DNA of 64,000 nt from Pedobacter sp. MC2016-14 (lineage in GTDB: Bacteria; Bacteroidota; Bacteroidia; Sphingobacteriales; Sphingobacteriaceae), in NCBI RefSeq assembly GCF_020991475.1, contig NZ_JAJMPA010000001.1, positions 496,001 through 560,000 on the forward strand. Direction: 5' to 3'. Shown piece after piece: positions 45,433-48,823 of this stretch; the stretch's first letter is position 1; every line of letters starts with the position of its first letter. The position numbers and the translations under genes were made by a program. The notes under the pieces are model-generated. The model saw only the letters and a list, made by a program, of their open reading frames with translations, did not search any database and was not told where the DNA came from.

Positions 45433-45547
45433 AAAAGGATAGCCGTTAAACTTAATTTCATAGGGCGTTAACAAAATTTCCGTTAAAATAGGAACAAAAA
45501 ACAATTTTACAATAAAAAACTAATCATCTGTGCTATATTTACCAACA

Positions 45548-46267
45548 ATGGAAACCGTAACCGTAAATACTAGTCAGCATGTGGCAATAAATTATCCTGT
45601 TGCCGGAATTGGAGAACGCCTGGCCGCAAGCTCTATTGACCTTGGCATATTCTGGATTTTATACTTCCTGGGCGTATTAATCGCGCTAAGCATAGGGCAA
45701 AAAGACGAAACGGTAATCATAGTATTGGTAGTTATCTATGCCTCCTGTTTTATTTTTTACAGTTTGCTTTGCGAAATCTTTATGAATGGGCAGAGTGTTG
45801 GAAAAAAGATCCTTAAAATTAAAGTAATTAGTCTTGACGGCGGGCAACCGGGCCTGGGTCAATTTGCAATACGCTGGTTGTTCAGAATATTAGATGTATA
45901 TACTACCGGGGTTATTGGCATAACAACTATAGTAATGACGGATAAAAAGCAACGTGTAGGAGACATTGTAGCCGGCACAACACTCATTAAAACTGTGCCT
46001 CAAACTAAAATAGAACACATTGCTTTCCATACCGACGAAAACTATATTCCTGTATTTAGCAACCCGGATGTCTTGAACGATCAGGATATTTCGCTGGTAC
46101 ATGAAGTTCTGTTTACCTATTATAAAACGCGAAACCCAGATTTGATTTACGTTACTGCGGCCAGAGTTGCTGAGCTACTAAGTACCGAATTGCCCGAAGG
46201 AATGAATGAACTTGCTTTTTTACAAACGGTTATTAAAGACTATAATTACATTACTTCAAGAGCTTAG
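45548..46267 (+). CDS. RDD-family membrane protein
   Basis: A 239-residue protein starting at 45548 (METVTVNTSQHVAINYPVAG). The RDD domain is seen in GIGERLAASSIDLGIFWILYFLGVLIAL, MNGQSVGKKILKIKVISLDGG and the terminal RVGDIVAGTTLIKT. Three membrane helices are likely. The cytoplasmic C-terminus (~85 residues) is helical. RDD proteins have been linked to ion exchange, but their job beside MoxR blocks is unknown. It is divergent from the SpoIIM gene, with 115 bases between starts, and its last 17 bases run antisense to the end of the lipB fusion. Confidence 0.9.
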   Translation: METVTVNTSQHVAINYPVAGIGERLAASSIDLGIFWILYFLGVLIALSIGQKDETVIIVLVVIYASCFIFYSLLCEIFMNGQSVGKKILKIKVISLDGGQPGLGQFAIRWLFRILDVYTTGVIGITTIVMTDKKQRVGDIVAGTTLIKTVPQTKIEHIAFHTDENYIPVFSNPDVLNDQDISLVHEVLFTYYKTRNPDLIYVTAARVAELLSTELPEGMNELAFLQTVIKDYNYITSRA

Positions 46268-47573
46268 CCACAGGACCAACCAGCGCATCAACCCAATTGC
46301 TATACATTTTTCCAGAAGGATGTAAACCATCAATAGCAGTTAATGCAGCATCTGTGGCCGCCAGTCTTGATGCCGGTGTAATGTCTGTATAATGTACACC
46401 CGCAGAAAGCGTTTCTTCTTTATTTATCGCATTAAACTGATCTATTTCTTCTGCGATCAAATGAACATCCTTACCACTTTCCTTTCCAAAAGAAGTAGCA
46501 CCCCAGTCGGGTATAGACACTACAAACACCCTGTTTGTATGCCCCCCGGCGAAACCAATGGCAGCCGACAACAACTCCTTAAATTCTTTACGGTATACAT
46601 CCGGAGAGTAACCGCGGTATTGGTTATTTACACCAATAAGCAAGGTCACAAAACTATAATTTCCAGAAATTTGAGCCTCAGAAACAGCAACCTTTAACTC
46701 ATCTGTGGTCCAGCCTGTTTTTGCAATAACCCTGGGTTCAGCAACACGAATACCATTGGTTTTTAGTACTGTGGCCAGTTGATAAGGAAAACTAAGTTCC
46801 TGGTCCACCGCCTCTCCAATAGTATAAGAATCTCCCAATGCAAGATAGCTGTGCACTGGCTCCGAAAGCGGCTCAGGTAGTTCCAGTTCCATATTAAACA
46901 GCACGGCAATATGGTTCTTTAACTTCTCTTTAACCTGGTCCATATCCACAGCATACCCAAGCTCGCGCTCCATGGTAGTCACGTCTTTATCGTCGATGCC
47001 GCAAGGCACTATATTTTTAAAATACTCCAGATTGGCATTTACATTAAGTGCAAAACCATGCATGGTAACCCATCTGCTGCAACGCACACCCAAAGCACAG
47101 ATTTTACGTGCATTCACGTTATCAGCATCAAGCCAAACACCAGTAAATCCCGGATAACGACCAGCCTGGATACCGAAATCTTTAAGTGTTAAGATTACTG
47201 CTTCTTCCAGTGTACGCAGGTATAAATGAATATCTGTAAAAAAGTTATCGAGATCCAATATAGGATAGCCAACCAATTGCCCAGGCCCATGATAGGTAAT
47301 ATCGCCCCCACGGTTTATTTTGTGGTAAGTTGCTCCCTTTTCTCTAAGCCCTTCCTCATTTAGCAGGAGATTATCCTGGTGACCACTCTTGCCAAGTGTA
47401 TAAACATGGGGGTGCTCACAAAAAATAAGATAGTTGGGCGTAGCAAGGTTGCTTCCATCGGTGCGATTTTGGATTTTTAAAGCCACAGTACTGTTAAATA
47501 CAGTATCCTGCTGATCCCATGCCTGCTGGTAATCTATCAACCCCCAATCTATAAATTCAACGCGTTTGTTCAT
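46251..47573 (-). CDS. lipB: Fusion: octanoyltransferase LipB + SGNH/GDSL hydrolase
   Basis: A 440-residue single-frame fusion. Residues ~1-232 are LipB, which moves octanoyl groups from acyl-carrier protein to lipoyl domains: EHPHVYTLGKSG, RGGDITYHGPGQ (88-99), Lys157 in ARKICALGVR, His172 and catalytic Cys191 in PCGI. Residues ~242-440 form an SGNH esterase: block I LALGDSYTIGEA with Ser249, block II KTGWTT with Gly287, block III GVNNQYRG with Asn316, and block V DGLHPSGKMY with Asp415 and His418. Both halves look catalytically complete. Free-standing relatives of the esterase normally carry a signal peptide; here there is none, so it should be cytosolic. The start at 47573 is preferred; an ATG at 47582 abuts the upstream stop. 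Confidence 0.92.
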   Translation of the reverse strand: MNKRVEFIDWGLIDYQQAWDQQDTVFNSTVALKIQNRTDGSNLATPNYLIFCEHPHVYTLGKSGHQDNLLLNEEGLREKGATYHKINRGGDITYHGPGQLVGYPILDLDNFFTDIHLYLRTLEEAVILTLKDFGIQAGRYPGFTGVWLDADNVNARKICALGVRCSRWVTMHGFALNVNANLEYFKNIVPCGIDDKDVTTMERELGYAVDMDQVKEKLKNHIAVLFNMELELPEPLSEPVHSYLALGDSYTIGEAVDQELSFPYQLATVLKTNGIRVAEPRVIAKTGWTTDELKVAVSEAQISGNYSFVTLLIGVNNQYRGYSPDVYRKEFKELLSAAIGFAGGHTNRVFVVSIPDWGATSFGKESGKDVHLIAEEIDQFNAINKEETLSAGVHYTDITPASRLAATDAALTAIDGLHPSGKMYSNWVDALVGPVAKLLK

Positions 47574-47582
47574 GATTACCAT

Positions 47583-48221
47583 TTAACCGGCTACATAGCC
47601 AAGCATGTACCCTTCTATTGTATTAAAATAATTTACATTCAGACTTTTTGTACCCTCCGGCAAATCAACCAACACCTGCATATAACCTTCATTGCTCAAT
47701 TCAAACTCCTGGATATGGATATCCCTTTTAAATTCCAACCCTTTTTTTCCATACCATTTATATACCGCCTCTTTGGCACACCAGCAGGCATACAATCCTT
47801 GTGTATTGTCTTTTACATTTGGCAAAGCGAGTTCGGGAGGCGAAAGGAACTTTTGTTGTATCCGGTGAATTTTAGTTTTAACCTGTTCTATATCTACCCC
47901 AACATCTTCTTGTCCAATCATCACCGCGGCATAATCATAAGAATGACTTAAAGAAATTTTTAAAGGACTATTTACCAGGTACGGCTTGCCATGTTCGTCC
48001 ATCCTGCAGTCTATATAATCTGCTGTATTGAGCATGGTTCTTAGCAGTAAACGGGTACTTAGCCAGTGCAGCATGCGCTTCCCGTTATTTAAAGAAGCCA
48101 GGTAATCAAGCTCGTGCTGTTTTAGTTGTAATCCTGCCAGTAAAAGTTCTTCACTTTCTTCGATTTTCCATACAGAGAGTATGGTGTGGTTATCAATATT
48201 TTTATTAAAAACTACAGGCAT
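47583..48221 (-). CDS. 4'-phosphopantetheinyl transferase (Sfp type)
   Basis: This enzyme moves the phosphopantetheine arm of coenzyme A onto carrier proteins. Beginning at the ATG at 48221 (MPVVFNKNID) it has 212 residues, the size of Sfp-type enzymes. Landmarks are GKPYLVNSPLKISLSHSYDY, the metal-binding DVGVDIEQVKTKI (Asp and Glu of GVDIE) and CWCAKEAVYKWYGKKGLEF, with WCAKEA-x-K intact. It is co-directional with the lipB fusion, whose first ATG follows its stop without a gap. Both enzymes deal with carrier-protein acylation, so the pairing makes sense. No polyketide or peptide synthase is present nearby. Confidence 0.92.
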   Translation of the reverse strand: MPVVFNKNIDNHTILSVWKIEESEELLLAGLQLKQHELDYLASLNNGKRMLHWLSTRLLLRTMLNTADYIDCRMDEHGKPYLVNSPLKISLSHSYDYAAVMIGQEDVGVDIEQVKTKIHRIQQKFLSPPELALPNVKDNTQGLYACWCAKEAVYKWYGKKGLEFKRDIHIQEFELSNEGYMQVLVDLPEGTKSLNVNYFNTIEGYMLGYVAG

Positions 48222-48286
48222 GCCTATTTTAAAAATCAATGCAAAAGTATCTTAAATTAATCATAATTTAGCCCAAATACTTAAAA

Positions 48287-48823
48287 ATGATACTTTCTGA
48301 CAAGCGAATACTGGCCGAGATTGAAAAAGGCACCATCATTATAGAACCATTTAATGCTGATTGTTTAGGCACAAACTCTTATGATGTTCATTTGGGCAAG
48401 TATTTGGCTACCTATAAAGACAGGGTGCTTGATGCAAAAGCACACAATACCATTACACATTTTGAAATCCCGAAGGAAGGTTTTGTATTGCAGCCGGGTA
48501 CTTTATACCTGGGTGTTACACTGGAATATACCGAAACACATGCCCATATTCCTTTTTTGGAAGGAAAATCCAGTACCGGAAGATTGGGTATTGATATTCA
48601 TGCCACTGCCGGTAAAGGCGACGTAGGATTTTGTAATACCTGGACGCTTGAAATTTCCTGTGCACAACCAGTTCGGATTTATGCGGGCATGCCCATTGGT
48701 CAGCTGATTTACTTTATGGTAGAAGGTGACATCGCAAATTTATACAACACTAAAAAAGACGCTAAATACAGCAATAAAACCACTAAACCTGTAGAAAGCA
48801 TGATGTGGAAGAATAAATTCTAA
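48287..48823 (+). CDS. dcd: dCTP deaminase
   Basis: Dcd turns dCTP into dUTP, feeding dTTP synthesis. The 178-residue protein shows the trimeric dUTPase-like fold with NADCLGTNSYDVHLGKYLA, GFVLQPGTLYLGVTLEYTE, LEGKSSTGRLGIDIHATAGKGDVGF and NTWTLEISCAQPVRIYAGMPIGQLIYF; the arginine and glutamate of the active region are in place. A TAATTTAG element, one mismatch from TAnnTTTG, is 16 bases before the ATG. Divergent from the phosphopantetheinyl transferase gene. Confidence 0.95.
   Translation: MILSDKRILAEIEKGTIIIEPFNADCLGTNSYDVHLGKYLATYKDRVLDAKAHNTITHFEIPKEGFVLQPGTLYLGVTLEYTETHAHIPFLEGKSSTGRLGIDIHATAGKGDVGFCNTWTLEISCAQPVRIYAGMPIGQLIYFMVEGDIANLYNTKKDAKYSNKTTKPVESMMWKNKF

Follow-up and report, generated by a model that had tools for sequence, protein, structure and literature searches.

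A single uninterrupted reading frame in Pedobacter sp. MC2016-14 encodes an octanoyltransferase (LipB) followed by an SGNH/GDSL hydrolase (Table 1). It lies within the stretch of 64,000 nucleotides that was analysed here as a whole, referred to as the window. An earlier note on this DNA had described the gene as an in-frame fusion with no stop between its parts, which the open frame bears out. The frame encodes 443 amino acids from its first ATG, or 440 amino acids from a second ATG at 47573. This second start (MNKRVEF) agrees with the starts of relatives (MKNKKV, MQNKEV) and is likely the actual one, as the note had also assumed. All eight catalytic residues that it named were found where it had put them in the 440-aa numbering; the codons of seven of these were also checked on the coordinates of the window.

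Immediately upstream lies a 4'-phosphopantetheinyl transferase gene, whose stop codon runs straight into the first ATG of the fused frame (TAAATG), leaving 9 bases between it and the likelier start. The 2 genes are therefore probably carried on one transcript.

Table 1. Positions of the fused gene, its parts, and its neighbours in the window.
Feature	Position	Strand	Basis
Fused ORF LipB-SGNH	46251..47582	-	Uninterrupted frame; starts compared with relatives
LipB (octanoyltransferase) half	46884..47582	-	PF21948, residues 18-225; NCBIfam models; alignment to 2qhs, 2qht, and 1w66
LipB catalytic Lys157 codon	47103-47105	-	Alignment
LipB catalytic Cys191 codon	47001-47003	-	Alignment
Linker ELPEPLSEPVHS, 12 residues	46848..46883	-	Comparison with near relative G040
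In-frame GTG in linker, preceded by GGAG at a distance of three bases; candidate internal start of SGNH half	46854..46856	-	Sequence only
SGNH/GDSL hydrolase half	46254..46847	-	Pfam, alignment, predicted fold
SGNH Ser249 codon	46827-46829	-	Alignment
SGNH Gly287 codon	46713-46715	-	Alignment
SGNH Asn316 codon	46626-46628	-	Alignment
SGNH Asp415 codon	46329-46331	-	Alignment
SGNH His418 codon	46320-46322	-	Alignment
4'-Phosphopantetheinyl transferase, directly upstream of fused ORF	47583..48239	-	Domain models; order kept in relatives
RDD-family membrane protein, convergent; 17-base overlap with end of fused ORF	45530..46267	+	Frequent flank in relatives
dCTP deaminase-like gene (dcd), divergent	48287..48823	+	Frequent flank in relatives

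The two halves of the fused protein

A Pfam scan of the whole fused protein up to an E-value of 0.1 returned only LplA-B_cat (residues 18-225, E 1.7e-48) and two GDSL models, among them Lipase_GDSL_2 (residues 248-427, E 7.7e-14). The protein also passed the cut-offs of two curated LipB models, PRK14345 from NCBIfam (205.4 bits, cut-off 155) and TIGR00214 (161.1 bits, cut-off 83.55); PRK14341, PRK14342, and PRK14343 matched as well, each below its own cut-off. As in the LipB enzymes of T. thermophilus (2qhs, 2qht) and M. tuberculosis (1w66), the full-length domain, the RGG loop, and the Lys/Cys pair are all present, but the window adds a C-terminal SGNH domain past the usual end of LipB. Lys157 and Cys191 align with the Lys and Cys of 1w66, which PMC9307952 describes as its catalytic dyad, and were also aligned with 2qhs. 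Judged by these models and alignments, LipB is complete in the N-terminal half, which would use a Cys/Lys mechanism to move octanoyl groups from acyl-ACP to lipoyl domains. The fused protein is the sole match to LplA-B_cat in the genome, which is 99.6% complete, and lipA is present, with a model match over its cut-off. On gene content, any lipoylation that starts from octanoyl-ACP should therefore run through the fused protein.

The second half scored above the cut-offs of PF13472 (55.6 bits against 32.9) and PF00657 (29.2 against 23.6), and all 43 aligned rows keep the same Ser, Gly, Asn, Asp, and His. Its predicted fold (pLDDT 94.6, pTM 0.91) is that of a standard SGNH hydrolase, with Z-scores of up to 22.7 in a comparison with solved structures. 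The best matches were diverse esterases with 12-20% identity, several of which score equal to or above P. aeruginosa TesA (4jgg; TMt 0.85, Z 20.0, 2.4 Å over 179 residues). The fold and the Ser, Gly, Asn, and Asp-His blocks are shared with TesA-like enzymes (4jgg; E. coli 1ivn/1u8u; CrmE10, 7c23), whereas the half in the window is approximately 14-20% identical to these, fused, and without a signal. It further carries GVNN in the third block, where SGNH and TesA-like hydrolases usually have GxND. TesA is normally an exported protein. The TesA equivalog model PRK10528 (cut-off 270) gave no match to the SGNH half of the window, and 18.6 bits for one relative (L131). A search of the window's genome with the fused protein at an E-value of 0.001 found no second match for this SGNH. 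From its models, fold, and relatives, we take the C-terminal half to be a complete SGNH hydrolase, belonging to a Bacteroidota family of mostly exported lipoproteins.

A model of the full-length fusion had a pTM of 0.53, which is too low to place the domains relative to each other. Linker residues 236-239 had a pLDDT below 50 in this model, and the linker is probably flexible.

Rarity of the fusion and gene order in relatives

The fusion was found stop-free over its full length in 3 of 145 Pedobacter genomes: that of the window, G057, and G299 (P. deserti SYSU D00382). A strong match to the fused protein was present in 141 of the 145, all but G014, G021, G028, and G324, and 138 of these 141 had no LipB-SGNH fusion. 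In a family set of 251 genomes, which did not include G057 and G299, the window alone was full-length and stop-free among the matches listed; G088 gave a full-length match as well, but with a stop in between. The window was also alone in showing a full-length match among those listed for a phylum set of 296 genomes, at least 225 of which had a match, although both the family and the phylum searches might have overlooked a distant fusion that had broken up into two weak matches. These counts (3 of 145 in the genus, and 1 of 296 in the phylum among the matches listed) show a rare architecture, one that the earlier note did not know from described LipB enzymes.

Open frames of approximately 460-700 amino acids had hinted at further fusions, which we rejected, as the search alignments ran through stops. 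Separate lipB and SGNH genes were seen in 20 of 20 regions inspected for suspected fusion, and direct inspection showed the same for the flagged loci L003, L008, L014, L020, L023, L027, and L039, and for the later flagged regions that held both genes. Two more genomes flagged as possible fusions (G003 and G071) had matches that contain stops, and L199-L201 and L203, loci of other families with long LipB frames, look like cases of GC-rich over-extension. Across 40 fetched regions, lipB had its own stop in 38 and was fused in 2 (G057 and G299).

An error of sequencing or assembly could have joined two genes, as relatives do carry two, and the earlier note had raised the case of close relatives with separate genes and this strain alone with a fusion. 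The first part of that picture was found, in that relatives have separate genes, but the strain is not alone: G057 and G299 are fused in frame as well, with a different linker. In addition, G040, a near relative of the window by LipB (84%) and rpoB (97%), has 56 codons between the end of LipB and the SGNH core, and these comprise the LipB stop, the SGNH start, and a lipoprotein signal. The 12 codons of the window thus do not differ from this by a single-base change. We therefore rejected an artefact, which is hardly conceivable given these data; the joint in Pedobacter sp. MC2016-14 is a real and rare fusion of neighbouring genes.

Among named relatives (the best 80 of 587, a sample that leans to near kin), a separate SGNH gene was found behind lipB in the same direction in 47 loci, no more than 250 bases past the lipB stop in 32 of these and farther away in 15. 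One locus was fused (P. deserti), and 32 had no SGNH in the stretch examined. Within the same 80, the gene was found behind lipB in Pedobacter, Mucilaginibacter, two Bacteroidetes records, one Daejeonella, and one Hufsiella, and was absent from all Sphingobacterium, several Pedobacter, and two Daejeonella loci. In total, 37 of 141 distinct lipB loci had no SGNH in the stretch examined, some of these stretches being short. Where the two genes are some 0.7-2 kb apart, the intervening genes vary. The flanks are better conserved: within stretches of limited length, the 85 loci with an SGNH match had a phosphopantetheinyl transferase gene before lipB in all 85 cases, dcd in 84, and RDD in 61. A phosphopantetheinyl transferase gene lay directly upstream of lipB in 99 of 120 loci, including those of Pedobacter, Mucilaginibacter, and Daejeonella, and not in those of Sphingobacterium.

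Outside the family, we compared positions by eye in 40 genomes that were chosen for having two matches among those listed in the phylum search. Three of these (G607, G568, G437) gave no place for lipB. In none of the 37 comparable genomes was SGNH near lipB: 12 had both genes on one contig, always at least 99 kb apart, and 25 had them on different contigs. As the linkage is common in relatives of the window and absent from these 37 genomes, it looks like a trait of the Sphingobacteriaceae.

The separate SGNH protein typically starts with a lipoprotein signal, e.g., MKILLSAILFSFLTSGCTK. Using simple hydropathy and Cys rules rather than a trained predictor, 137 distinct SGNH proteins were classified as exported (114), signal-less (20), or fused (3). 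The rules alone gave 108 + 5 exported, 21 signal-less, and 4 fused proteins out of 138; L067 was then moved to the exported class by eye, and L222, a long GC-rich frame, was left out. The earlier note had held that SGNH relatives are usually exported, as these numbers confirm, and that the fused protein has no signal peptide. The fused copies indeed have no lipoprotein signal, and their hydrolase must therefore be cytosolic. The window thus has the same two genes, order, and neighbours as the unfused pair of other Sphingobacteriaceae, but encodes one protein where these encode two, with SGNH mostly exported.

Origin of the joint and loss of the export signal

When compared with G040, the simplest route to the fusion would be an in-frame deletion spanning the stop and the signal. 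Such a deletion would remove everything from the stop of LipB to the signal peptide, including the spacer between the neighbouring genes, and would leave the hydrolase in the cytosol as a C-terminal domain, attached to LipB by a short linker that is probably flexible.

The linker of G057 and G299 is 15 residues long and differs from that of the window. A tree of rpoB and rpoC from 30 genomes, 29 of them with rpoC, hand-picked for their spread across the trees, grouped G057 and G299 with G271 (support 100/99) and left the window outside this group. A tree constrained to unite the three fused genomes was rejected (log-likelihood 66.5 lower, p-AU 0.0012), and a tree of dcd, the phosphopantetheinyl transferase, and LipB with 88 rows gave a p of 0.019 against a single clade. 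A single origin was not rejected by two SGNH trees (p-AU 0.71 and 0.82), by the LipB tree (0.77), or by a 7-gene tree (0.76; 45 rows, without the rows nearest to the window). In these four tests, the constrained tree scored above the free quick tree, and the free search was therefore incomplete. Since rpoB and rpoC separate the fused lineages and the linkers differ, two independent fusions are likelier than a single one followed by horizontal transfer of the fused gene.

In G271, the sister of G057 and G299 by rpoB and rpoC, lipB is present and no SGNH match was found at an E-value of 0.001 among the matches listed (locus L215), so that fusion and SGNH loss stand side by side in this group. 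In another genome (G261, locus L205), lipB is intact and the SGNH frame that follows it appears to be broken.

Loss of the signal is not confined to the fused copies. In several genomes, the gene of an unfused, signal-less SGNH protein is separated from lipB by 0.9-1.9 kb that hold other genes, and signal loss is therefore not tied to LipB. When mapped on the best SGNH tree, the exported or non-exported state changed at least 13 times, with 4 changes forced by starred branches. Relocation to the cytosol thus looks like something that SGNH does by itself, with fusion as one route, and its repeated loss of the signal without joining LipB argues that SGNH works on its own.

The charge of the SGNH core had a median of -1 in exported proteins (n = 114) and -7 in signal-less ones (n = 20), and was -6, -10, and -13 in the fused copies. 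An acidic core as an adaptation to the cytosol was set aside, as a phylogenetically independent comparison of 4 supported pairs showed no effect.

Possible roles of the hydrolase half

To assess whether the hydrolase half is maintained, we compared it with its unfused relatives. None of the 38 columns that are invariant in 40 unfused SGNH rows was changed in the three fused copies. Between G057 and G299, dN/dS by NG86 was 0.063 for LipB (11 nucleotide differences) and 0.23 for SGNH (16 differences); by YN00 it was 0.36 for SGNH, and 0.47 when the linker was included. The ratio of the SGNH rate to that of the flanks was 1.2 for the window and 2.1 for G057 and G299. The SGNH half thus appears to be under constraint, more weakly so in the lineage of G057 and G299; for the half in the window itself, this rests on one genome.

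These values also bear on the possibility that the hydrolase is a decaying passenger, which has no use once it is off export and is being lost. The faster SGNH of G057 and G299, with its long stem (0.93 in the SGNH tree) and its higher dN/dS than LipB, would fit such decay, as would the missing SGNH match in their sister G271 and the apparently broken frame of G261. The frame is fully open, however, no invariant column is broken in any fused copy, and both rate ratios lie within the range of 56 exported copies (0.79-2.4), which makes a decaying passenger unlikely.

We consider it fairly probable that the gene is a fusion of neighbours in which a working LipB is joined to a cytosolic acyl-esterase or thioesterase that acts as an independent module, the joint stemming from gene order. 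Family membership and the missing export signal suggest that the SGNH half hydrolyses acyl esters or thioesters in the cytosol. With its TesA-like fold, it would act as an acyl-esterase or thioesterase on substrates of its own, presumably like the signal-less members that are not fused, and it would be retained as a catalytic module in its own right. The joint would have arisen through gene order, probably twice, and hydrolysis would not be a step of lipoylation.

The earlier note had instead tied the hydrolase to octanoyl transfer. In such a scheme, SGNH would cleave thioesters of acyl-ACP or acyl-LipB, carrying wrong chain lengths or a stalled octanoyl group, and would thereby edit or tune LipB. 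The covalent joint to the only LipB of the genome, the adjoining phosphopantetheinyl transferase gene, and the probably two independent fusions are in line with this. So is the chemistry of related enzymes: E. coli TesA, itself an SGNH enzyme, has been crystallised with octanoic acid (PDB titles 1u8u and 5tie), and mycobacteria have an SGNH octanoyltransferase, OctT (PMC4555173). Against it stand the usual form of the protein, an exported lipoprotein behind lipB in Sphingobacteriaceae and hence away from ACP, the distance between the genes in all 37 genomes compared outside the family, the LipB unfused to SGNH in nearly all strongly matching Pedobacter genomes and, above all, the loss of the signal without fusion and with other genes intervening before lipB. 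The relatives thus speak against the note on this point, and we regard a hydrolase coupled to lipoylation as unlikely. Its strongest version seems slightly more doubtful still: that Pedobacter twice built a LipB with its own cytosolic acyl-thioesterase, which would edit or drain octanoyl-ACP or octanoyl-LipB, making one bifunctional enzyme for lipoylation and medium-chain acyl release. A role of the SGNH half in editing lipoylation is thus possible but unsupported.

Alternatively, the fusion may be of little consequence if both activities are also made separately, with SGNH freed by cleavage of the linker or by initiation within it. The linker of the window holds an in-frame GTG preceded by GGAG, and that of G057 and G299 a TTG; the corresponding position is where signal-less relatives begin (MNKELSYLA, MTALSYLA). 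However, the LipB stop is missing in all three fused genomes, and the sequence, which is all that was considered here, gives no sign that an internal start is used. Bacteria of the Bacteroidota, moreover, rely little on Shine-Dalgarno sites. Separate products therefore strike us as rather unlikely, and an independent hydrolytic module within one protein remains our preferred reading.

Fusion of a LipB-type catalytic domain to a second domain is known from the lipoate ligases Lpl(AB) and Lpl(BA) (PMC10332631). Their partner is LplB, resulting in an ATP-dependent ligase, whereas the partner in the window is a hydrolase; its C-terminal half is SGNH and not the LplB accessory domain, which sets the protein apart from Lpl(AB). 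Mycobacterial OctT shares a theme with the fused protein, namely the SGNH superfamily and octanoyl groups, a likeness drawn from its description as a sugar octanoyltransferase; that account reports no orthologues outside Actinobacteria (PMC4555173). No LipB-SGNH fusion was found in the open-licence literature that was searched. The pairing is a new domain pair made from ordinary parts, both real and uncommon.

As such, it offers a case of a hydrolase that left the envelope for the cytosol, repeatedly by losing its signal and, in what are probably two lineages, by becoming fused to a central metabolic enzyme. If acyl-ACP were a substrate of the SGNH half, LipB would carry a built-in hydrolase; that literature gave no other case of this kind. 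More generally, the fusion raises the question of what role this widespread SGNH lipoprotein of the Bacteroidota plays, and whether the side of the membrane matters to it. Two of the unfused proteins (L012 and L043, both from loci that are cut short) carry lipoprotein-type signals with Phe at the position of the lipobox cysteine, and may possibly represent intermediates in the loss of export.
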